Source: Rhodococcus sp. P-2 (GTDB lineage: Bacteria > Actinomycetota > Actinomycetes > Mycobacteriales > Mycobacteriaceae). From it: a stretch of 64,000 bases of DNA. Made by a program: the position numbers and the translations under genes. The notes under the pieces were generated by a model. It was not told the origin of the DNA. It made no database searches and saw only the letters and a program-made list of their open reading frames with translations. Location: NCBI RefSeq assembly GCF_016598535.1, contig NZ_CP066779.1, forward strand, positions 5,330,053 to 5,394,052. Direction: 5' to 3'. Below are positions 2,963 through 58,609 of this stretch, one piece after another (within the stretch, counting starts at the first letter, position 1; each line of letters starts with the position of its first letter).

Positions 2963-3910
2963 TTAAGGCTTCCTTCCTCGCCATCCGGTAACCGGAAGCT
3001 CGAACTTGCGAACCATCCGATCAGCGAAGGGCGCAGAGTCCAACCGGACCCACTTGACGGGAGTGGCGCCGCGAACGATCTCGACGCGAGCGCCGGCAGG
3101 CAGTTCCAACGTTCGACGGCCGTCGCAGAAGACCAGGCCGTCATGGCTACCGGCGACGGTCTCCACCGCGATGATCGAATTCGGGCTGGTGACCAACGGC
3201 CGCGCGAACAGCGCATGCGCGTTGCTGGGTACGACGAGCAGCGCTTCGAGTTCGGGCCACACGACGGGGCCGCCTGCGGAAAATGCATACGCGGTCGAGC
3301 CTGTGGGAGTGGACACGAGAACACCGTCGCAACCGAAGGCAGAGACCGGTCGGCCGTCGACTTCGAGGACAACTTCGAGAACTCCCAGACGCGAACGATT
3401 CTCGATACTGGCCTCGTTGAGCGCCCACCCGCGGTCGATGATCTCGTCGTCCACCCGAATCACGACGTCGAGTGTCATACGCGACTCGACGCGATATTCC
3501 TTGCGAACTACTTGTGCGAGAGCCTCGTCGAGATGCTCGGCCTCGGTCTCTGCCAGAAATCCGATGCGTCCGAGGTTGATGCCCAGTACCGGAATGGACG
3601 CTTCTTGAGCGAGCTCGGCGGCGCGCAGGAACGTGCCGTCGCCACCGAGAACCAGTACCAACTCGCATCCGACGGCGGCATCAGGGCCGGGATGAACAAC
3701 GGTGACGTCGAGACCCGGCGCAGAGAAACCCGCGGGTTCCGTCATTGCTTCGATGCGCGAGCTGTCTGCTTCGTCGACGAGGACGCGCAGTCCGATTCCC
3801 GCGCGCTCGAAGATCTTCCCGACCCGCTTGGCAGTTTCCGTGATGTCACGTCGACCCGGGTGTGCGACAAGAAGGATCTCGCGCGACTCGCCGTTCGTGA
3901 CCGCGTTCAC
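2963..3910 (-). CDS. nadK: NAD kinase (ATP/polyphosphate-dependent)
   Basis: 315 aa. Phosphorylates NAD+ to NADP+. The family hallmarks are present: [16 protein letters not shown] (GGDG motif), [12 protein letters not shown], and the nucleotide-binding glycine-rich segment [20 protein letters not shown]. Length agrees with the mycobacterial enzyme (about 307 aa). The start ATG overlaps the tlyA stop by 4 nt, indicating translational coupling, and recN follows immediately. The order tlyA-nadK-recN is conserved in actinobacteria. Confidence 0.96.
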
Positions 3911-4752
3911 TGGGGCCCTTCCTCTACAGCCTTGCGAATCATGTCCTCCACCGTGGGGACATCGTCGGTAGCGGCATCCGTCTCTTCATCGCCGGATGAA
4001 CCTGTCTTTCGAAGCCACAGGAAATACTCGACATTTCCCGACGGACCGGGCAATGGGCTGGCCACCACACCTAACGTCCGCAGACCTACCTTTGCAGCAG
4101 CCTCCGACACGTCGAGCACAGCGGAGATTCGCAATTCCGGATCTCGTACGACGCCACCGGCACCGACGCGGTCCTTGCCCACCTCGAACTGAGGCTTGAC
4201 CATCGGGACCAGGTCCGCACCGTCAGCAGTACAGGCGACGAAGGCCCCGAGTACGAGTTTGAGAGAAATGAACGACAGGTCCGCGACAACCAGATCGACT
4301 GTTCCACCGATCGTCTCGGCATCGATAGCGCGAACATTGGTTCGGTCGATGACATGCACGCGGTCGTCGGACTGAAGGCGCCACACCAATTGGCCGTAAC
4401 CGACGTCGACGGCGACAACTTCCTTCGCACCACGCGTCAGAAGAACATCGGTGAACCCACCGGTGGAAGCGCCCGCGTCAAGGCATCGGCGTCCTTCGAC
4501 CGTCAATCCTTCGGACCCGAAAGCGTCGAGGGCACCGATCAGCTTGTGTGCCCCTCGCGAGGCCCACGAGACTTCCTGCTCGACCTCGACTACCCGAAGT
4601 GGAGTTCCTGCCTCGATCGCCGTCGCAGGCTTGGTCGCGACTGCGCCCGAGATGAGAACTCGGCCTGCGGAAATCAGTTCTTGCGCATGATCTCGCGACC
4701 GTGCGAGTCCGCGACGGACCAGTTCGGCATCCACCCGTGCTCTACGTGCCAC
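3907..4752 (-). CDS. tlyA: TlyA family rRNA 2'-O-methyltransferase / hemolysin-like
   Basis: 281 aa. An N-terminal S4 RNA-binding domain (residues about 1-60: [30 protein letters not shown]) precedes an FtsJ/RrmJ-like SAM methyltransferase domain with [15 protein letters not shown] and [14 protein letters not shown]. In mycobacteria TlyA 2'-O-methylates 16S C1409 and 23S C1920 and confers capreomycin sensitivity. The C-terminus extends about 15 acidic residues beyond the Mtb protein. It is first in the tight tlyA-nadK-recN group and lies 1 nt downstream of the small gene at 4754-4996. Confidence 0.93.
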
Positions 4753-4753
4753 G

Positions 4754-4996
4754 TCAAGCCCTGTCCACAGAGGCGAGCGCCTGGACGAGCACCTCGTGTG
4801 CCTGTTCCAAAATATGTGCCTTCTGCGGAATCACACCTGCTCCGTGCTGATCGTTCGGATCGTGCTCGATGCCGCCGAGGCGCGCCAGCAAACCGTCGAC
4901 GTCAGAACGTATACGTTCCGGATCGACGGTCTGGCGTGGCCCGGGCAACGGCGATCCGTTACTCGAGTTTCCGGGGTGCGGTGTCGGCGTGCTCAT
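4754..4996 (-). CDS. Small conserved protein (Rv1693-like position), function unknown
   Basis: 80 aa from ATG 4996 (MSTPTPHPGNSSNGSPLPGP). The longer open frame upstream to 5212 is not coding-like. The N-terminal 25 residues are Pro/Ser/Gly-rich and likely disordered. The remainder (DPERIRSDVDGLLARLGGIE, then HILEQAHEVLVQALASVD) looks helical. It sits exactly between the HAD phosphatase and tlyA, where Mtb has the small gene Rv1693. There is no recognisable enzymatic motif. Support for coding comes from position, tight spacing to tlyA and codon use. A regulatory or scaffold role is possible but unproven. Confidence 0.75.
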   Translation of the reverse strand: MSTPTPHPGNSSNGSPLPGPRQTVDPERIRSDVDGLLARLGGIEHDPNDQHGAGVIPQKAHILEQAHEVLVQALASVDRA

Positions 4997-5072
4997 CGCG
5001 CACAACGCTAGTGCATGACTCTCGGTTACGCATACACCCGCACCCCCGCGAGTCGAACACATTTGCGAGAAA

Positions 5073-6056
5073 TCAGACGAGCCAGGAAGCAAACAGATCC
5101 GCCACGCCGGCGTCCGACGCTTCCAGTGTCTGGAAGGACGGATTGGCCCATGCGACAGGCGCAACCGCGCGTAGAAGGGACATCTCGTCACCGACAACCG
5201 GGCCGTCGACAACCAGCGCCGATCCGTTCACGGAGACAGACCACTTGGAGTCCGCACCGACCAGCGATTCGACGGCCGGCTGATTGAGCGAATCCAGAGT
5301 TGCTGCAATGTAGGTGGGACGCTGCTCAATCGGAGCCCGCAGTACGTCGCCCGGCGTGCTCACACCGGTGAGAACCAACAACGAGTCGACCGAAACAGCA
5401 TGTGCGCCTTCGATATCAGTGTCCAGACGATCGCCGACCACCAGAGGACGCGAACACCCGCTGCGAGCGAGCGCATCCTCCATCAGCGGTGCAGCCGGCT
5501 TACCTGCCACCAAGGGTTCCTGCTTGGTCGCAGCGCGTAGAGCTGCCACCATCGAGCCGTTTCCGAGAACCAAACCCCGTTCCGACGGCAGAGTGGTGTC
5601 CAGGTTCGCAGCCACCCACAGCGCGCCGGCCCTGATCGCCAAGCACGCCTCGGCGAGGATCGTCCAGTCGGTCTCCGTCGAATGTCCTTGAACGACAGCA
5701 ACCGGAGAATCCGCGAACTCACGAACCGGAAGCAATCCGACGCGGGTCACCTCGTCGGCCAATGCGTCGGTACCGACGACCAGAACAGCTGCACCGGGTT
5801 CGAGACGCTCAGCCAACAGGCGCACTGCCGTCTGAGAACTGGTGACGACACGATCATCTTCGGAATCGAAACCGAGTTCGGTCAGATGCGCCGACACTGC
5901 CGAAGGCGAGCGACTCGCATTGTTGGTCACGTAGTACAAAGCCTGCGTGCCCTGCCCCAGAGCAACCTGGGTGCCGGGAATCGCATGAGCTCCGGCGTAC
6001 AGCGTGCCGTCGAGATCGAGCAAAAGTACGTCGTACTGAGTACGAAGCACGGTCAC
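5073..6056 (-). CDS. HAD-IIA family phosphatase (glycerol-3-phosphate phosphatase-like)
   Basis: 327 aa. HAD motif I is LLLDLDGTLYAGAHAIPG, motif II is YVTNNASRSP, and the C-terminal Mg-binding motif is VVGDRLDTDIEGA. The NagD/IIA cap lies between, and a C-terminal extension of about 75 aa follows (LDSLNQPAVESLVGAD onward). Size and position match Mtb Rv1692, characterised as a D,L-glycerol-3-phosphate phosphatase with an extra C-terminal domain. The start overlaps the stop of the TPR gene by 4 nt. A 76-nt gap separates it from the next small gene. Confidence 0.88.
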   Translation of the reverse strand: MTVLRTQYDVLLLDLDGTLYAGAHAIPGTQVALGQGTQALYYVTNNASRSPSAVSAHLTELGFDSEDDRVVTSSQTAVRLLAERLEPGAAVLVVGTDALADEVTRVGLLPVREFADSPVAVVQGHSTETDWTILAEACLAIRAGALWVAANLDTTLPSERGLVLGNGSMVAALRAATKQEPLVAGKPAAPLMEDALARSGCSRPLVVGDRLDTDIEGAHAVSVDSLLVLTGVSTPGDVLRAPIEQRPTYIAATLDSLNQPAVESLVGADSKWSVSVNGSALVVDGPVVGDEMSLLRAVAPVAWANPSFQTLEASDAGVADLFASWLV

Positions 6057-10491: not shown

Positions 10492-10507
10492 CGTGATCTT
10501 GATCACA
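10492..10507. promoter_or_regulatory. CRP/GlxR-like palindrome upstream of the 43-residue peptide gene
   Basis: CGTGATCTTGATCACA fits the TGTGA-N6-TCACA consensus with one mismatch. It lies about 80 nt upstream of the 10587 start in the 247-nt intergenic region, which holds no other recognisable gene. cAMP-CRP/GlxR control is inferred. Confidence 0.5.
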
Positions 10508-10586: not shown

Positions 10587-10718
10587 ATGGGATCCCTCGA
10601 CACCGGCTCGCTCAGCACCGAATCGCTCGAAGACCTGAACCTCGGCAAGATCAGCGAGCTGCTCAAGCTCGGTATCACCGCGGTCAGCTTCATCACGGCG
10701 CTGAACTCGCTCAGCTGA
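10587..10718 (+). CDS. Small amphipathic peptide, 43 aa, no signal peptide
   Basis: ATG 10587 follows a strong ribosome site (CTAGGAG, 7 nt spacing). The peptide reads MGSLDTGSLSTESLEDLNLG then KISELLKLGITAVSFITALN and ends SLS. It is acidic in the N-terminal half and helical-amphipathic in the second, with no Cys and no signal sequence. It is isolated between intergenic DNA with a CRP-like site and two tandem hairpins, so it is its own transcription unit. Its MGSL start, size and composition resemble the four peptides at 53.5-54.5 kb. A mycomembrane (PorA/PorH-like) or secreted peptide role is inference; function is unknown. Confidence 0.75.
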   Translation: MGSLDTGSLSTESLEDLNLGKISELLKLGITAVSFITALNSLS

Positions 10719-22519: not shown

Positions 22520-23461
22520 ATGAAGACACGTCGATTCACGGTTCGGCTGACGATGGCGGTGGCCATGGCCGCCGGCTTTCTCGGCCTCAGCGCGCCGACC
22601 GCGAGCGCGGATTCCGTGGTCAGTCGCATCGACGTCTACTCCCCGTCGATGGACCGCTGGATCGCCAACGACGTGATTTCCCCGGCCGGAGGTGGCCCCG
22701 CGCCGACCTTCTATCTGTTGACCGGCGTCGGCGGCGGCGAGGACGGAATCTCGTGGTTCAACAACACCGGAGTTCGTGACTTCTTCGACGACAAGCACGT
22801 CAACGTGGTCATGCCGGTCGGCGGCAAGTTCAGCATGTACACCGATTGGAACGCCGACGATCCGGTGCTCGGCCGCAACAAATGGCAGACGTACCTCACC
22901 AAGGAACTACCGGCGGCGGTCAACGCTCGGTACAACACGACCGGCGTCAACGCTCTGGGCGGTGTGTCGATGGCGGGTGGACCGGTTCTGGACCTCGCGA
23001 TCCAGTCGCCGGGCACCTATCGCGCCGTCGGCTCGTACAGTGGCTGTCCGCGCGCCGGCGACCCGCTCGGTCAGGCAGCGGTGCGCTCGATGGTCGAGAT
23101 ACTCGGCGGCGGCAACGCAGCCAACATGTGGGGTCCGTGGGGTAGCCCGCAGTGGGCTGCGCACGACCCGCTGATCAACGCCGAGAAACTGCGCGGGACA
23201 GCGTTGTTCATCTCCACCGGCAATGGCCTTCCCGGCCCGGTGGACGGAATCAATTCACTGGCCATGGCTGCCGGCGTCGTTCCCGGCGCTGTGCTCGAAG
23301 GCATCACCAACATGTGCACCGCCGCTCTGCAAGGTCGATTCGGCCAGCTCGGGATTCCCGCGACGTTCAGCTTCCGACCCGAGGGCACCCACACCTGGGG
23401 GCTCTTCGAAGCCGACATGCGTGCGTCGTGGCCGATGATCGCCGGCGCTATCGGGGCGTGA
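22520..23461 (+). CDS. Secreted mycoloyltransferase / antigen 85 family esterase
   Basis: 313 aa from ATG 22520, preceded by GGGGG. Signal peptide with probable cleavage after PTASA (residue 30). An alpha/beta-hydrolase of the antigen 85 family: YLLTGVGGGEDGISWFNNTG, NVVMPVGGKFSMYTDWNADD, nucleophile motif GGVSMAGG (Ser150), SYSGCPRAGDPLGQAA, WGPWGSPQWAAHDPL and the His region EGTHTWGLFEADM. It transfers mycolates to trehalose, arabinogalactan or small proteins in the envelope; the acceptor is not predictable. The open frame extends upstream to 21749, antisense to the repeat gene, and is not coding. Confidence 0.92.
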   Translation: MKTRRFTVRLTMAVAMAAGFLGLSAPTASADSVVSRIDVYSPSMDRWIANDVISPAGGGPAPTFYLLTGVGGGEDGISWFNNTGVRDFFDDKHVNVVMPVGGKFSMYTDWNADDPVLGRNKWQTYLTKELPAAVNARYNTTGVNALGGVSMAGGPVLDLAIQSPGTYRAVGSYSGCPRAGDPLGQAAVRSMVEILGGGNAANMWGPWGSPQWAAHDPLINAEKLRGTALFISTGNGLPGPVDGINSLAMAAGVVPGAVLEGITNMCTAALQGRFGQLGIPATFSFRPEGTHTWGLFEADMRASWPMIAGAIGA

Positions 23462-51782: not shown

Positions 51783-53288
51783 TTATCCGCCGTCGACCAC
51801 GCCTTCGCGGTCAAACCCTCGCCTGATCGTTCGAGGTACCGCTGGCTTGCGATAGGTGCGGGTGGCCGTGGTCGGCTCGGAATTCTGTTGCGGCACGGCG
51901 TCGTTGCCGACGTTGCGCACTTTCACGAGATTGCGTCCGGCACGCTTGGCGTCGTACAGAGCCTCGTCCGCGACGCTCATGAGGGTGGCCAAGGCAGGCG
52001 TCGCGTGATCAACCCACGCGACGCCGACACTGACCGTGCTCGTCACATCTGATTCGGCCGAGTACTCGACCTGCGCGCCGCGGACGGCCTCGGCGACGTC
52101 GACTGCTCGGGCAAAGCTGCAGTCCGGAAGCAGAATGGCGAACTCCTCGCCGCCGAGCCTTCCGATCAGATCGCCGTCCGACAATCGGTCAGCGGCCCGT
52201 TCGGCGAAGTTCGCGAGAACGCTGTCACCGGTCATATGTCCATGCGTGTCATTGATGCTCTTGAAGTGGTCCAGGTCGAGCATCAGCAGGCCGACCGGGG
52301 ACTGCGCGCGGGCCGCGTCGGCAAGTTCCGATTCCGCATGTCCGAGAAAAGCACCGCGCGAGAGGACTCCGGTCAGATGGTCGAATTCGACAGCAAGGAA
52401 AAGCTCACGCTCGGCAGCGCGACGTTCCTCGGTCGCACAGGCAACCGCGATCGGCCCCAACGCGATCAACGTGACCGCAATGGACGTGATGACGTCCTCG
52501 TTCCAAGTCGACGCGGCTTGATCTCCGATATCGAGTCGACCGCTACCCGCCATCATGAGTGACCACACCGACCAGACCACGGAAACGAAGGCAGTGCTCG
52601 GAACCGAGATGCGAGTGGCGCACCACAGGAGAGCTGGAATCGGCAGGACCAGCGCGATCGGCCCTTCGATGCTGAGGGCGATCGGTACGCAGGCTGCAGT
52701 GGCGAGTAGCGGAACGCTCATAGCGGCGACGGTTCTGGCCGTCAGTTTGGTGCGGAACTCGGCAAGGCTCGACGGGATGGTGAGAGTCAGAATGAGAGGA
52801 AGGACCAGCAGGTACGCCATGACCTCGGTGGCGCCCCAGTGGACAAACGTGTCGGTGAAGGACAGACCGCGTAAGAGCCGGTCCAAGGCGCCGGCGGTTG
52901 CCGCGGTACCAGTCGCCGCGACGAACGAGACGAAGACCATCCACACCAGTGACTGCGAATCGACCAATCGGAACGGTGTTCGCTTCAAGTAGTACAGAAC
53001 AAGAACACCGACTGTGACACCGGCGAGGTTCGCCCCGTTCAACTGCAGGGCAAGCGATAGCGAATTGCCGGTGATCAGGTCGGCGCAGACGTATCCGACG
53101 GCCGCAGCGATCCACGTTCGCCATTCGATCAGGACCGGCCATCTGACCATCATTCCCAGCAAAATGGCGTTGGCGCACCAGAATGTCGCGAGCAAACCTG
53201 GTGGGCGGGTGAGGATGCCGATCAACGAAGCCGCAAGCACGACGGCCAGCACTAGGAGAAGGCGCAGAAAGCGACTCGTCCCTACCAT
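51783..53288 (-). CDS. Diguanylate cyclase with MASE1-type membrane sensor
   Basis: 501 aa. About eight TM helices (residues 8-300) form a MASE1-like domain ([36 protein letters not shown]). The C-terminal GGDEF domain carries [20 protein letters not shown], the divalent-metal motif [20 protein letters not shown] and active site [12 protein letters not shown] (about residue 378). No RxxD inhibitory site directly before GGEEF. It should make c-di-GMP. There is no EAL phosphodiesterase in the window. It lies upstream of the peptide cluster but on its own. Confidence 0.92.
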
Positions 53289-53528
53289 GCGTCACCTCGC
53301 GGTCGGCTACCTCTGAATTCGGGAGCACCGGACGTCGCGGTGACCGTATGCCGATGTCGTCGAACCATCGTACGCAGGTGCTGCCACTCGCAGTTCTGTG
53401 TTTACATGCCAAAAGGGCAACTACGAATATCTCCGCAAACACGGGTGCCCTCCGGCCACGACAGTGGACAGAGGGCACCTGCATGCAATCCGATTGGCAG
53501 AGCCGAACGACCCTGCCGGAAGGGATGA

Positions 53529-53675
53529 CTACTCGGCGGATCCGCTGGACAGACCCGAGAGTGAACCGGTGGACGAGCCCTCGCCCTCGCCGGACAGCGA
53601 TTCGGTGGGAACGGACTTGAGGAAAGCTCCGAGCGCGGTGAGCAGGGGTCCGAGGGTGCTGAGTGATCCGAACAT
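53529..53675 (-). CDS. Small amphipathic peptide 4, 48 aa
   Basis: ATG 53675 follows AGGAG (8 nt). MFGSLSTLGPLLTALGAFLK then SVPTESLSGEGEGSSTGSLS and GLSSGSAE. Helical hydrophobic first half and Ser/Gly-rich acidic tail. No signal peptide, no Cys. Likely a separate transcript: a terminator precedes it and two CRP-like sites (53803-53818 partial, 53959-53974 perfect) lie upstream. Function unknown; mycomembrane or secreted peptide is inferred. Confidence 0.75.
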   Translation of the reverse strand: MFGSLSTLGPLLTALGAFLKSVPTESLSGEGEGSSTGSLSGLSSGSAE

Positions 53676-54036
53676 AGGAGGTTCTCCTGTATGTGAGGTG
53701 GTGTGGTGTTCCAGCGCCATTCCGGCCGCAGGCGGTGGCCGAGATGGTTCGGGAACTTCTGCCGCACGGATGGCTGAACCGCCCCCGAACAACATCCCGA
53801 GCTGTGACGTAGCGCACTACCGTGGCGCTGACTGCATTTATAGACCGGCTACCGACACTTGTCTAGCTACCAAATAGCTACCAAGGTGAACGGCCAGTAA
53901 CACCTTCAGTCGTAATTGCAGTTCAGAGCACATATCCACTGTTCAATCCTTGCAAAAATGTGATTTAGCTCACACTAGAAAGGCGGAAAGTGTGACTCGC
54001 AGACAACTGCGAGCCACACTTTCGGACAAACGGGAC
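53676..54036 (-). promoter_or_regulatory. 361-nt intergenic with CRP/GlxR-like sites and a terminator
   Basis: TGTGATTTAGCTCACA (53959-53974) is a perfect TGTGA-N6-TCACA palindrome. TGTGACGTAGCGCACT (53803-53818) is a partial one. The region 53820-53980 is clearly AT-rich relative to the genome. A large hairpin (53986-54023) closes the peptide 3 transcript. No gene is evident. Confidence 0.6.
53986..54023 (-). terminator. Terminator after peptide 3
   Basis: Stem GAAAGTGTGACTCGCAG / CTGCGAGCCACACTTTC (17 bp, one G-U) with a 4-nt loop, 14 nt after the peptide 3 stop. Confidence 0.88.
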
Positions 54037-54159
54037 TTACTTGTCAGCCGCCGATCCGGTCCCAGGGGTGAGCGAGCCACCACCGAGTGCCGTGAACAGG
54101 TCCTTGAGTACCGGAATGAACGTCTTGACGACGCCGCTGAAGTCTTCGAATGAACCCAT
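54037..54159 (-). CDS. Small amphipathic peptide 3, 40 aa
   Basis: ATG 54159, site AAGGAG at 8 nt. MGSFEDFSGVVKTFIPVLKD then LFTALGGGSLTPGTGSAADK. A central amphipathic helix is flanked by Gly/Ser/Thr-rich ends; net charge about -1; no signal peptide. 51 nt after peptide 2. The peptides share the MGS(L/F) start and similar layout. Confidence 0.75.
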   Translation of the reverse strand: MGSFEDFSGVVKTFIPVLKDLFTALGGGSLTPGTGSAADK

Positions 54160-54210
54160 GTCGGGTCTCCTTATGTCGGGATGCAGTTGAAAAGAAGTTG
54201 GGACCGAGAA

Positions 54211-54324
54211 CTACTCGGCAGTGGAACCGGCCGAACCCGAGTCGTCTGCCGACCCCGCGTTCAACTTGGTCACGAATGCGAGAACGCTCTTGAGGAAGGC
54301 GTCGAGATTCTGAATTGAGGTCAT
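54211..54324 (-). CDS. Small amphipathic peptide 2, 37 aa
   Basis: ATG 54324, AGGAG at 7 nt. MTSIQNLDAFLKSVLAFVTK then LNAGSADDSGSAGSTAE. Short hydrophobic helix and acidic Ser/Gly/Ala tail; net about -2. No signal peptide or Cys. Between peptides 1 and 3 with gaps of about 45-50 nt. Confidence 0.75.
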   Translation of the reverse strand: MTSIQNLDAFLKSVLAFVTKLNAGSADDSGSAGSTAE

Positions 54325-54369
54325 GCGACTACTCCTGTGTTGTTTCGGAAGATTTCCAGCGGTCGAACG

Positions 54370-54492
54370 TCAGGAGTTCGAGCTCGCGGTGTCGAGCCCC
54401 TGAATGGTCTTGAGCATGTTGACCAGGGGAAGAAGCTGGAGAATGCCCCAGCCCATACCGTTGGCCTTGAGAAGGTTTCCGAGGGATCCCAT
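54370..54492 (-). CDS. Small amphipathic peptide 1, 40 aa
   Basis: ATG 54492, AAGGAG at 7 nt. MGSLGNLLKANGMGWGILQL then LPLVNMLKTIQGLDTASSNS. The most hydrophobic of the set and slightly cationic; no signal peptide. First in a likely transcript with peptides 2 and 3. Best described as PorA/PorH-like or PSM-like in size and character; homology not established. Confidence 0.75.
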   Translation of the reverse strand: MGSLGNLLKANGMGWGILQLLPLVNMLKTIQGLDTASSNS

Positions 54493-54812
54493 GTGTGACT
54501 CCTTGCATGAATATCTATGACGCGGCGCACGTTTTGTTCGCTCCGCCCCTTTGTAGCCAAGCTAAACAAGTACGTCCAGTTTGTTTTTGCTCAAACAGAA
54601 GCGTGACATATTGGATCGATGTGTAAACCTGCAGTTCAGGCACTGTGACCTGAATCCAACCTCGAATTCGAATGTGGCAGACATCACAATCAAATAGGAC
54701 AAAAGGATGCAATCGTCAGAGTCGGTGCCAACCTCGACCACGATCTGTCATACCGTGTGCTTGTGATCAATCGCGAACGAGCGGCAACCCGGCCAATTCA
54801 CTGGGAACCGTC
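54493..54812. promoter_or_regulatory. Divergent intergenic region between peptide genes and the ABC exporter
   Basis: 320 nt without a convincing gene, AT-rich in 54530-54700. It contains TTCAGG-N8-CCTGAA (54635-54654), an inverted repeat suited to a dimeric regulator, and the palindrome TCGAATTCGA at 54662-54671. It should contain promoters for the peptides (leftward) and for the exporter (rightward). Confidence 0.5.
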
Positions 54813-56546
54813 GTGTTAGCAAAACTGCTCAAGGCGTACCTCCCGCCGTACCGCTGGTTGCTTGCCGGAGTTCTCGCACTTCAACTCTTCGGGGCTATCG
54901 CGTCGTTGGTCCTCCCCACGCTCAACGCTCGGATCATCGACGACGGTGTCGCCCGCGGTGACACCGGATTCATCATGTCCACCGGCGGGATCATGCTTCT
55001 GGTCTCGCTTGCATCGATCATCGCGTCGGTCGCATCGACCTATCTGGCTGCAAAATCGTCGATGGGCTTCGGCCACGACGTTCGAGGCGCCTTTTACAAA
55101 GCCGTCGGCAGCTTCTCGGATCGCGAATTCAACAGTTTCGGTGCGCCGACGCTGATCACACGGAACACCAACGACGTCCTGCAGATCCAGGCCCTGGTCA
55201 TGCTGACGTCCTCGATGCTCGTCAGCGCCCCACTGATGTGTATCGGCGGCATCGTCATGGCCCTGCGCGAGAACCTGCAGATGTCCTGGCTCCTGACGAT
55301 TTCGGTGCCACTACTCGGCATCACCGTCTCGGTCGTTGTGGCCAAGCTGATCCCGCATTTCCGAACTATGCAGACGCGGATCGACAACATCAATCGATCA
55401 CTGCGCGAACAGCTCACCGGTATGCGTGTCATTCGCGCCTTCGTTCGCGAGCCTGACGAGACGATCCGCTTCGACAAGGCCAACAAGGAACTGACCGACA
55501 CCTCGCTCCTCATCGGTCGGTACCAGGCAGTGCTGCTGCCCACCGTGATGTTGATCGCCAACCTGTCGAGCGTCGCGGTGCTGTGGTTCGGCGCGCATCT
55601 GGTCGACACCGGAGACATGCAGATCGGACAGATCAGCGCCTTCCTCGCCTACGTCATGCAGATCCTGATGTCAGTGGTCATGGCGACCATGTTGGCCGTG
55701 GTGATCCCCCGCGCGGCCGTGTGCGCCGACCGCATCACCGAGGTACTCGACACCGAGCCGACCGTGCCCGCGCCGGCCCAGCCCCTCCGCCCGACCAGCC
55801 CCTACGGCGTTGTCGAGTTCGGTGGAGCCGGATTCACGTATCCGGGAGCAGAAACGCCGGTCCTGTCGAACGTTTCGATGCGATGCATGCCAGGTACGGT
55901 CACCGCGATCGTGGGCAGTACCGGTAGTGGCAAATCGACCCTCGTCTCACTCATCCCCAGACTCTTCGACGTCACGGCCGGCGCCGTCCTCGTCGACGGC
56001 TTGGACGTCCGCGGCTGGGATCAGGACGAACTCTTCACCAACTTCGGATACGTGCCGCAGAAGGCCTACCTGTTCGCCGGCACGATCGCGAGCAATATCC
56101 GCTACGGAAACCCGACCGCCACCGACGACGACATCTGGGCAGCCCTCACCATCGCCCAGGCAGACGACTTCGTGCGGGAACTGTCCGATGGTCTCGAGTC
56201 TCCGATCGCCCAGGGCGGCGGCAATCTCTCGGGCGGACAACGCCAACGTCTCGCCATCGCCAGAGCTGTGGTTCGTAGACCCCGGATCTTCGTCTTCGAC
56301 GATTCGTTCTCAGCACTCGACATGCACACCGATGCTGCGGTCCGGCGCGAACTCCGCACGGTCTCGACTCATTCGACGGTCATCATCGTCGCGCAGCGCG
56401 TCGCGTCCATCATCGATGCCGACCAGATCATGGTGCTGGAGGATGGTGCGCCGGTCGGCCTCGGCGACCATCAGTTCCTTCTGGCCAACTGTCCGACGTA
56501 CCAAGAGATCGTGGCTTCCCAGATTCCCGCGGAGATGAGCGCATGA
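54813..56546 (+). CDS. ABC exporter half-transporter, degenerate-site subunit
   Basis: 577 aa from GTG 54813 (MLAKLLKAYLPPYRWLLAGV). Six TM helices (residues about 15-300) and an NBD. Walker A IVGSTGSGKST at about 367, signature LSGGQRQRLAIARAVV at about 471, Walker B IFVFDDSFSALD at about 491-500, with Asp in place of the catalytic Glu. This pattern occurs in the non-hydrolytic site subunit of heterodimeric exporters (TM287-like). The 4-nt overlap with the next half-transporter shows they make a heterodimer. The frame open to 54672 is not coding. Confidence 0.92.
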   Translation: MLAKLLKAYLPPYRWLLAGVLALQLFGAIASLVLPTLNARIIDDGVARGDTGFIMSTGGIMLLVSLASIIASVASTYLAAKSSMGFGHDVRGAFYKAVGSFSDREFNSFGAPTLITRNTNDVLQIQALVMLTSSMLVSAPLMCIGGIVMALRENLQMSWLLTISVPLLGITVSVVVAKLIPHFRTMQTRIDNINRSLREQLTGMRVIRAFVREPDETIRFDKANKELTDTSLLIGRYQAVLLPTVMLIANLSSVAVLWFGAHLVDTGDMQIGQISAFLAYVMQILMSVVMATMLAVVIPRAAVCADRITEVLDTEPTVPAPAQPLRPTSPYGVVEFGGAGFTYPGAETPVLSNVSMRCMPGTVTAIVGSTGSGKSTLVSLIPRLFDVTAGAVLVDGLDVRGWDQDELFTNFGYVPQKAYLFAGTIASNIRYGNPTATDDDIWAALTIAQADDFVRELSDGLESPIAQGGGNLSGGQRQRLAIARAVVRRPRIFVFDDSFSALDMHTDAAVRRELRTVSTHSTVIIVAQRVASIIDADQIMVLEDGAPVGLGDHQFLLANCPTYQEIVASQIPAEMSA

Positions 56547-58609
56547 CCAGCCCGCAGGACCCGACATGGGGCGGCCCCAACAGCCAGTACTTCGACGATG
56601 CCCCGACTGTGGTGTTCGCCAAGATCCCGAGCGAACCCGAATCCGCGGACGGGGATGCGAAGTCGAGTAACCCCGAGAACCCCGACAAAGAGCCGAAGCC
56701 TGCGCTGACCGCGACGGACACCAAACCTCGCCACTTCAAAGCGACGATGAAGCGGCTTCTCTCGCTTCTTCAGCCACACAAGTTTGCGGTCGTCTGCGTC
56801 GTCGCTGCGACGATCGCCAGCATCGCACTCTCCGTCGCAGTGCCGAAGATCCTCGGTCACGCGACAGACCTCATCTTCGCCGGGTTCATCGGTAAGAGCC
56901 TGCCCGCCGGACTGACCCGCGAGCAGGCCGCAGACGCCATCCGGGCATCAGGAAATTCGACCTTCGCCGACCTCGTGTCCAATTCGACCGACGTCGTTCC
57001 GGGCGTGGGTCTGAACTTCGACGCGATCGGCAAGGTCGTCATGCTCGCGATCGGCGTGTACTTGCTCTCGTCGCTACTTGCCTGGTTGGAAGCATTTCTC
57101 CTCAACATCATCGTCCAGAAGACCATCTACAACCTGCGTGCCTCGGTCGAGGCGAAGCTTCACCGTCTGCCCCTTCCGTACTTCGACAAGACGCCGCGCG
57201 GCGAGATCCTCAGCCGCGTCACCAACGACATCGACAACATCTCGTCTACGTTGTCGTCGACGTTGACCTCGCTCCTGACGTCGGTGCTCACCGTCCTCGG
57301 TGTCCTGACGATGATGTTCGTCATTTCGCCGATGCTCGCCCTGATCGCACTGATCGCGGTGCCGGTATCGGTGCTCCTCGTTGCCAGGGTCGCCAAGCGA
57401 GCACAGGTGTTGTACAAGGCTCAGTGGGCCGAGACGGGCAAGATCAACGCACAGATCGAGGAGAACTACAGCGGTCGCGACCTGGTTCGTGTGTACGGGC
57501 ATCAGGCCGAAGCCGAGCGTGAATTCGCCGAGCAGAACAAGAAGCTCCTCGACGCGTCCTTCGGCGCACAGTTCCTCTCCAGTCTGATCATGCCGGTCAT
57601 GAACTTCGTCGGAAACATCACCTACGTGCTGCTTGCTGTGGTCGGCGCACTCAAGGTCGCCAGCGGCAACATGTCTCTAGGTGACGTTCAGGCGTTCATC
57701 GTCTATTCGCGCCAGTTCAGCCAGCCACTCACGCAGATCGCGTCCATGTCGACGAGCCTGCAGTCCGGGGCCGCGTCGGCCGAGCGGGTCTTCGAGCTTC
57801 TCGACGAACCCGAGCAGTCGCCCGACATCGACGTGCCGCTTCTCCCCGAGCCCGCCGGACGCCATCGCAACGTCGGTCACATCGAGTTCGAGAACGTCTC
57901 GTTCCGCTACGAGCCGGACAAGCCGTTGATCGAGAACGTGTACCTCACGGCTCGGCCCGGGCAGATGGTCGCCATCGTCGGCCCCACCGGTGCCGGCAAG
58001 ACCACCTTGGTGAACCTGCTCATGCGCTTCTACGAAGTCGACTCGGGCCGAATCACTCTCGACGACGTCGACATCTCGCAGATGCGCCGCTCCGACCTGC
58101 GAAACCACGTCGGCATGGTTCTGCAGGACACCTGGCTCTTCGGCGGAACGATCCGCGACAACATCGCGTACGGCCGGCTCGACGCCAGCGAACACGAGAT
58201 CCACGAAGCCGCACGCGCTGCCTTCGTCGACCGCTTCATCCACACGCTCCCGGACGGGTACGACACCGTGCTGGACGAGGAGGCGTCGAACATCAGTTCC
58301 GGCGAGAAACAGCTCATCACGATTGCCCGCGCATTCCTGTCGGAGCCGTCGCTGCTGATTCTCGACGAGGCGACGAGCTCGGTCGACACACGTACGGAAC
58401 AGCTTGTGCAGCAAGCAATGTCCGCGTTGCGCGTCGGGCGCACCAGCTTCATCATCGCGCACCGGCTCTCCACCATCCGTAACGCCGATCTGATCGTCGT
58501 GATGGAGGCGGGCAAGATCGTCGAACAGGGCACACACGACGAACTCATCGCAGCGGCGGGCGCGTACTTCCGTCTCTACAACGCTCAGTTCGAGGGTGCC
58601 GCCGTCTAG
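56543..58609 (+). CDS. ABC exporter half-transporter, partner subunit
   Basis: 688 aa, longer because of a disordered N-terminal extension (about 60 aa, NSQYFDDAPTVVFAKIPSEP) and an extracytoplasmic loop near residues 110-165. Six TM helices, then Walker A IVGPTGAGKTTLVNLL (about 480), degenerate signature ISSGEKQLITIARA (about 583; LSGGQ lost) and canonical Walker B LLILDEATSSVDTRTE (catalytic Glu). The degenerate signature pairs with the Asp Walker B of the first subunit, so one ATP site is inactive. Export substrate unknown: drug, lipid or the nearby peptides. Confidence 0.93.
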   Translation: MTSPQDPTWGGPNSQYFDDAPTVVFAKIPSEPESADGDAKSSNPENPDKEPKPALTATDTKPRHFKATMKRLLSLLQPHKFAVVCVVAATIASIALSVAVPKILGHATDLIFAGFIGKSLPAGLTREQAADAIRASGNSTFADLVSNSTDVVPGVGLNFDAIGKVVMLAIGVYLLSSLLAWLEAFLLNIIVQKTIYNLRASVEAKLHRLPLPYFDKTPRGEILSRVTNDIDNISSTLSSTLTSLLTSVLTVLGVLTMMFVISPMLALIALIAVPVSVLLVARVAKRAQVLYKAQWAETGKINAQIEENYSGRDLVRVYGHQAEAEREFAEQNKKLLDASFGAQFLSSLIMPVMNFVGNITYVLLAVVGALKVASGNMSLGDVQAFIVYSRQFSQPLTQIASMSTSLQSGAASAERVFELLDEPEQSPDIDVPLLPEPAGRHRNVGHIEFENVSFRYEPDKPLIENVYLTARPGQMVAIVGPTGAGKTTLVNLLMRFYEVDSGRITLDDVDISQMRRSDLRNHVGMVLQDTWLFGGTIRDNIAYGRLDASEHEIHEAARAAFVDRFIHTLPDGYDTVLDEEASNISSGEKQLITIARAFLSEPSLLILDEATSSVDTRTEQLVQQAMSALRVGRTSFIIAHRLSTIRNADLIVVMEAGKIVEQGTHDELIAAAGAYFRLYNAQFEGAAV

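Follow-up and report, generated by a model that had tools for sequence, protein, structure and literature searches.

Four very short open reading frames lie side by side near one end of a 64,000-nucleotide stretch of Rhodococcus sp. P-2 DNA (hereafter the window), and they raise the question of whether frames of this size are genes and, if so, what their products do. The original prediction described them as signal-less amphipathic peptides that resemble either the corynebacterial mycomembrane channel peptides PorA and PorH, or leaderless bacteriocins and PSMs. We analysed the coding evidence, distribution, control regions and neighbours of these frames, together with similar peptides elsewhere in the genome. 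The peptides most likely function like PorA, PorH and the mycomembrane peptide ProtX, yet cannot be assigned to those families.

Coding evidence, distribution and control of the peptide genes

All four reading frames were present where they had been placed, on the minus strand, encoding 37-48 residues and each preceded by an AGGA/GGAG-type ribosome site. These are pep1 (53529..53675; 48 residues, MFGSLS..., with a helix at about residues 8-21 and a variable Ser/Gly tail), pep2 (54037..54159; 40 residues, MGSFEDF...), pep3 (54211..54324; 37 residues, MTSIQNL...) and pep4 (54370..54492; 40 residues, MGSLGNLL...). Three of the starts are of the kind reported before (MFGSL in pep1, MGSF in pep2, MGSL in pep4), with pep3 beginning MTS. 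An ORF filter (ATG start; AGGA, GGAG or GAGG site; 33-60 residues; no Cys; at most one Arg and three Pro), fixed post hoc with the peptides already known, returned five ORFs over the 64 kb, namely pep1-4 and one at 10587-10718. In the segment 53289-54806 the four observed ORFs compare with a mean of 0.007 and a maximum of 1 among 300 Markov copies. Because the filter was chosen after the peptides were known, conservation is a stronger test than this count.

Among 28 whole genomes of the window's GTDB genus, intact copies were found in nine for pep1, five for pep2, four for pep3 and four for pep4 (E 1.8e-16 or better). The original prediction named lack of conservation in sister strains as one possible refutation, and the frames are in fact kept across the R. 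erythropolis group, with dN/dS values for pep1-4 that are mostly 0-0.35. The exceptions concern pep1, where the window's genome (G000) or G001 differs from G011 by two nonsynonymous and no synonymous changes, and where three pairs with G021 give dN/dS of ~0.52-0.53, their unalignable tails having been compared gap-free; pep1 genes of differing length were compared over the first 27 codons only. Taken together, pep1 to pep4 are real genes that annotation has overlooked. Named records carrying pep1 are R. erythropolis NBRC 15567, R. qingshengii IEGM 1359, R. globerulus NBRC 14531 and two Rhodococcus sp., and similarity to these records probably places the window's strain within the R. erythropolis group. 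Loss is patchy: G012 has pep1 and pep2, four genomes (G015, G017, G021 and G023) have pep1 alone, and G022 has none of the four.

Outside the genus, five more family genomes carry an intact pep2. With pep2 and pep3 profiles we recovered the gene order pep4-pep3-pep2 in five genomes, which belong to four further GTDB genera, with one pep4-type gene in G089 and two each in G116, G150, G198 and G221; the remaining family matches of these profiles were weak or partial, and by eye the surroundings of the five operons differ. A richer pep2 profile run against 401 family genomes gave 12 matches at E ≤0.02, comprising five from its own clade, the five other-genus operons, a decayed copy in G130, and G047, where there is no MGS peptide (as we call peptides of this kind). 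For pep1, 301 family genomes yielded no clear relative beyond the genus: 66 genomes matched at E ≤1, nine of them from its own clade and the other 57 at 0.016 at best. These genome searches were made within the family, and a protein search covered 5.8 billion proteins, in which the matches bearing a name (a minority) were all Rhodococcus or Prescottella. The pep4 sequence of G089 is the same as NCBI entries named Rhodococcus, and at least three of the operon-bearing GTDB genera would be Rhodococcus in NCBI naming. A mobile origin was considered and rejected, the region 53400-54700 having no match in plasmids.

The cluster falls into two transcription units with similar predicted promoters, one running from pep4 (first gene) through pep3 to pep2 (last gene) and one consisting of pep1 alone. 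The predicted pep1 promoter (53837..53865, minus strand) combines TAGACA and TATAAA across 17 nt; TATAAA is identical in 10 aligned sequences from nine distinct genomes, and the -35 element nearly so. The predicted pep4 operon promoter (54550..54578, minus strand; TGGACG, 17 nt, TACAAA) is conserved in three aligned genomes, with G011 left out. Hairpins follow pep4-pep3-pep2 (53986..54023, minus strand; -30.5 kcal/mol, z -8.5, with a weak U tract) and pep1 (53444..53479, minus strand; -30.8 kcal/mol, z -4.6). In seven sequences of the pep1 hairpin, two-sided changes affect 5 of 17 pairs, and in five pairs one or more sequences show a break or a gap. Neither promoter, and neither terminator, of the two units was picked up by an automatic scan, whose rules are stricter. 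The pep1 leader (53676-53830, minus strand) is long and conserved, with a stem CGGTC/GACCG that seems by eye to covary; a riboswitch in it was rejected, the single Rfam match (E 3.1) being due to chance.

Upstream of both units lie matches to TGTGA-N6-TCACA, which we take to be the CRP/GlxR consensus, a site being any match within one mismatch (at least 9/10). The site TGTGATTTAGCTCACA (53959..53974; 10/10) is ~137 nt upstream of the predicted pep1 transcription start, and in six of seven pep1 loci a site of 9-10 out of 10 is found at -302 to -307, the aligned site in ARC_M6 scoring 8/10 by eye. The site TGTGGCAGACATCACA (54673..54688; 9/10) is ~137 nt upstream of the predicted pep4 start and also upstream of divergent ABC genes; in R. 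globerulus it scores 10/10 at the same distance. The third site in the window, CGTGATCTTGATCACA (10492..10507; 9/10), is 95 nt upstream of the fifth ORF returned by the filter, pep5 (10587..10718, plus strand; 43 residues, MGSLDTGSLS...LNSLS). A counterpart of pep5 was found near the expected distance in seven of eight stretches, with none in G015, and in all seven a site scoring 9/10 lies between -93 and -96. Thus all three sites of at least 9/10 in the window precede MGS peptides. Their number is not unusual (three against 1.67 expected); it is their placement, spotted post hoc, that matters. The regulator would be GlxR acting with cAMP, going by the consensus. We observed by eye that pep5 sits between thiE-like and NUDIX-like genes, and an inverted repeat follows it; the peptide had no match among NCBIfam models or in phages.

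Peptide properties and neighbouring genes

The first eight residues of each of pep1-4 are free of Lys and Arg, in keeping with the predicted lack of a Sec signal; judged in this way, all four fall in the class of signal-less peptides below 60 residues to which PorA and PorH belong. Amphipathicity, which had been ascribed to the whole set, holds for pep1, pep2 and pep3 (shuffle p 0.027, 0.002 and 0.005) and fails for pep4 (p 0.53); the same test gave p 0.13 for PorA and 0.000 for PorH. Similarly, the description of Ser/Gly-rich tails does not extend to pep4, whose tail is not Gly-rich. Net charges are -3, -1, -2 and +1 from pep1 to pep4. AlphaFold predicts a helix at residues 8-21 of pep1 (mean pLDDT 93 for residues 11-20) followed by a low-confidence tail, and helices at residues 4-10 and 20-38 of pep4 (mean pLDDT 72).

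The cluster is flanked by a MASE1-GGDEF diguanylate cyclase gene (51783..53288, minus strand), thought not to be part of the system, and by two genes for predicted MsbA-type ABC exporter half-transporters (54807..58609, plus strand), a possible exporter. Around the five other-genus operons, stretches of 8.8-17 kb gave no tblastn match to the ABC pair or the cyclase, nor to the mycoloyltransferase of the cassette described below. The only mycoloyltransferase matched in the window is ~30 kb from pep1-4, which counts against a mycomembrane role. This gene (22523-23455, plus strand) is of the Ag85 type and its product is 45% identical to the cassette enzyme. The ABC transporter was rejected as an obligate partner in general, since the ABC gene persists in G022, which has no pep1-4, and the pair has no match in the stretches around the five operons.

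These observations bear on two alternatives. The peptides could be inner-membrane or cytoplasmic regulatory microproteins that act, for example, on the neighbouring cyclase or transporter; their short hydrophobic helices would suit such a role, and pep1 adjoins the MASE1-GGDEF gene in nine of the ten genomes with a close copy of the cyclase. However, with neither neighbour matched at the other-genus operons, with the conserved Ser3 and the Ser-rich tails left unexplained, and with gene loss and tail change better suited to a surface role, we regard this as unlikely. Somewhat less likely still is the second half of the original prediction, here taken to mean a multi-peptide bacteriocin or PSM-like surfactant that leaves the cell through the divergent ABC pair. 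It draws on the clustering of signal-less peptides beside two MsbA-type half-transporters, on the amphipathicity of three of the four, and on a second copy of the first ABC gene that is confined to the pep1-bearing clade (10 of 28 genomes). Leaderless bacteriocins and PSMs are mostly, not universally, cationic, whereas only pep4 of our four is positive; moreover, the ABC pair is unmatched in the stretches around the other-genus operons, and the ABC gene outlived the peptides in G022. Incidental inspection showed no immunity candidate. On this evidence the bacteriocin or PSM reading finds no support.

Peptides A and B and the mycoloyltransferase cassette

Weak matches of the pep2 profile in G022, G000 and G011 (E 0.014, 0.015 and 0.018) led to a second locus. 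In the window's genome it encodes peptide A (41 residues) and peptide B (33 residues), both with MGS starts and strong ribosome sites, directly upstream of two PF00756 mycoloyltransferases of Ag85/Cmt1 type that are encoded on the strand shared with A and B (locus L141, G000:C1:1399000-1411000, positions 3595-6023). The closest solved structure for both enzymes is Cmt1 (E 7e-69 and 9e-58), followed by PS1 (3e-43 and 2e-48) and Ag85 (2e-34 and 9e-27). Structure 4H18 is described as apo-MytC, an enzyme that mycoloylates PorA, in the relevant passage of PMC11927696. The two enzymes are 39% and 37% identical to Cmt1; as other enzymes of the genome reach 47%, they are not its nearest relatives. This genome has 18 PF00756 matches, and MGS peptides lie within 1.5 kb of only the two at the A/B locus.

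A search with peptide A across 401 family genomes gave 51 with matches at E ≤0.05, in six genera, the sixth being represented by a chance match (G378). One place was inspected per genome (five genomes had several matches), and an Ag85-type gene was found near peptide A in 48 of the 51, in stretches of 2.7 to 7.6 kb. By scan and classification by eye, 46 of these 48 have A- and B-type peptides preceding the enzyme on the same strand; the scan passed no B-type peptide in G036 and none of either type in G207. The places without an enzyme are a lone peptide in G198, a contig end in G021, and G378. The 51 genomes are not independent, genus g23 being dominant, and we estimate chance adjacency at ~1-2% per place from 18 genes in 6.3 Mb. 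Peptide A had no match in plasmids. CRP/GlxR-like sites of 9/10 occur in two of seven A cassettes (G000 and G023), at differing places, and a site of at least 9/10 occurs in one of the five other-genus pep operons (G089), at a dissimilar place (-40). With sites so sparse or misplaced, such regulation is clade-specific at best.

Several variants of the cassette were seen. In G012 and G022 (L206 and L164) the mycoloyltransferase that comes first after A/B seems to be disrupted; in G376 three tandem A/B pairs precede one mycoloyltransferase (L212, 1517-3142); and MGS peptides of other types (MGSIEALNN..., MGSLASIFD...) are found near the cassette at L213 (2576-2698 and 4061-4174) and L196 (2771-2896).

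Between the R. erythropolis type strain and the window's genome, peptide A is 44% identical and the adjacent enzyme 97% (L205, 2413-2735, against L141), a disparity that suggests fast divergence or replacement of the peptide. Corynephage Cog requires ProtX and PorA for infection according to the portion of PMC9671496 that treats it, and the patchy loss of pep1-4 and the disparity in peptide A would both suit surface peptides selected mainly for phage recognition, as receptors or decoys, but this idea is compatible with a mycomembrane location and is not a true alternative to it, and as a separate explanation we consider it the least probable.

The sequence links among the peptides are weak. 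The hhalign probabilities were 58% for A-B, 27% for pep2-B, 22% for both pep4-A and pep4-B, 19% for pep3-pep2, 15% for pep4-pep2 and at most 7% for pep1 with any other, so that pep1-4 against A/B range from 0.6 to 27%. With free column shuffling of seven pairs, nearly all 60 controls were exceeded, save for pep1-B, whose score was reached by 15 of 60. When shuffling spared the first four columns, the score was reached by 2 of 60 controls for pep2-B, 0 for pep4-A, 5 for pep2-A, 3 for pep4-B, 0 for pep3-B, 21 for pep1-B and 2 for pep1-A. In hmmsearch the better direction gave E values of 1e-4 (B to A), 0.003 (pep2 to A and B), 0.004 (pep3 to pep2) and 0.0025 (pep1 to pep3), with 0.015, 0.07-0.7, 0.2 and 0.06 in reverse, against 2465 decoys (small frames from the window and from L124, L127 and L128), the top decoys of the pep1-4 models looking like the peptides' own longer frames, with scores near the self-match. 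After trimming of the three N-terminal residues, the best values were 0.01-0.5, and even A-B dropped to 0.16; the similarity of pep1-4 to A/B thus mostly fades once the MGS start is removed. On these alignments a single superfamily of MGS peptides is plausible.

The best value against PorA or PorH was 11% for pep3-PorH (E 0.003, without shuffle control), a value that some links within the MGS set do not exceed. The input here consisted of single PorA and PorH sequences, and an inner-start fragment of a 63-residue peptide A was left out. PorA and PorH themselves gave 1%, and the TCDB authors call them related in the section of PMC4827864 that covers them; hhalign is therefore insensitive at such a length, and it speaks neither for nor against a remote relationship with PorH. 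None of pep1-4 matched any NCBIfam family at E up to 1, the PorA, PorH and PorACj models included, and of ten relatives nine had no NCBIfam match and one reached an adhesin model below the cut-off (E 0.07); as controls, PorA and PorH matched NF033925 and NF033938, respectively, above the cut-off. Pfam gave no match above cut-off for pep1-4, including to MspA (PF09203), and the window's genome already has two separate MspA porin genes, which counts against a PorA/PorH-like role. A 45-residue signal-less peptide of other Rhodococcus (L120-L123; MDLAFLSEF...) had matches below the cut-off to NF033938 (E 0.02) and NF038022 (E 0.11), and was rejected as PorH-like because these model matches were all it had.

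A mycomembrane reading and its relation to known systems

We give a probability of about 0.6 to the reading that pep1-4 and their look-alikes are signal-less mycomembrane microproteins that work like PorA, PorH and ProtX. The likeness to PorA and PorH put forward in the original prediction stands with regard to size, the missing signal, operon organisation, and the A/B look-alikes beside a mycoloyltransferase in 48 of 51 genomes; it does not stand with regard to family models, locus or profile similarity. The linkage of A/B to the enzymes is the best evidence that such peptides have an O-mycoloylated mycomembrane role. Against the mycomembrane reading, pep1-4 themselves have no adjoining mycoloyltransferase, and pep4 is not significantly amphipathic.

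Under the mycomembrane reading, cAMP-GlxR would control the peptide genes, and the translated peptides would lose their initial Met ahead of Gly2 or Thr2. For the window's genome the calculated masses of the unmodified peptides are 4576 Da for pep1 with Met and, with Met removed by the usual rule, 3888 Da for pep2, 3587 Da for pep3, 4027 Da for pep4, 4012 Da for peptide A and 3127 Da for peptide B; pep3, A and B differ in other strains. The peptides would be exported without a signal; a secreted Cmt1-type enzyme would then esterify a Ser, in the C-terminal tail or at position 3, with mycolate, and the products would form a hetero-oligomeric pore or a surface protein within the mycomembrane. 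A broader proposal, whose odds we put somewhat short of even, is that the MGS peptides form one undescribed superfamily of O-mycoloylated, signal-less mycomembrane peptides outside Corynebacterium, in Rhodococcus and relatives, with at least seven members in the window's genome, partly controlled by cAMP-GlxR, with an enzyme for each pair and a Gly-Ser mark. Since A/B travels with its own mycoloyltransferase, each enzyme may serve its neighbouring pair, and the conserved N-terminal Gly-Ser may be a recognition mark for export or acylation.

Looking forward, the A/B cassette, two tiny peptides before a mycoloyltransferase, offers candidate enzyme-substrate pairs that are testable in harmless Rhodococcus strains. 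If the mycomembrane reading is true, O-mycoloylation extends to further genera and annotation overlooks a class of envelope proteins. In the parts of the cited literature that deal with them (PMC12632848, PMC5944148), protein O-mycoloylation and signal-less mycomembrane porins are described for Corynebacterium alone; the literature considered also includes portions of PMC9233653 and PMC11066868. Titles and abstracts, with subscription journals mostly outside, gave no recognised description of MGS peptides or of the A/B cassette.

Of the known systems, PSMs and leaderless bacteriocins share with pep1-4 that they are short, signal-less, clustered peptides; they differ in charge and tails, and the pep cluster has no conserved exporter. 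In R. erythropolis, Lichtinger, Reiss and Benz reportedly described in 2000 a channel protein of 8.4 kDa, of which 45 residues were sequenced; it resembles the MGS peptides, by description only, as a small oligomeric cell-wall channel subunit from the same species. ProtX (cg2875) of C. glutamicum, set beside pep1-4 likewise by description, has 38 residues and no signal, as stated in a passage of PMC5310785. Its last residue is Ser, going by the primer name ProtX-S38A, and a terminal Ser is likewise seen in pep4, pep5 and several relatives; unlike the pep cluster, ProtX is encoded by a single gene.

The closest comparison is with PorA and PorH (TCDB 1.B.34 and 1.B.59; NF033925, NF033937 and NF033938; PorACj, NF038022), which are likewise small, signal-less and helical, with 37-57 residues, mostly two genes per operon, in mycolic-acid bacteria. 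Peptides of this type have no presequence, fewer than 60 residues and an unexplained export route, in the accounts excerpted from PMC5944148 and PMC12632848. The MGS peptides differ in matching no family model, in numbering three to four per operon plus separate ones, in their Ser/Gly tails, and in occurring in Rhodococcus and relatives. Whereas PorA and PorH are encoded between groEL2 and ppk2, according to the part of PMC3792995 on this locus, pep1-4 lie between a diguanylate cyclase and an ABC pair. Partial accounts of Cmt1/MytC have it acylating PorA, PorH and ProtX, mostly on a Ser amid small residues and with no strict motif, and mention orthologs from Rhodococcus and Nocardia. The enzymes downstream of A/B belong to this Cmt1/MytC and Ag85 family, and other enzymes of the genome match Cmt1 better.
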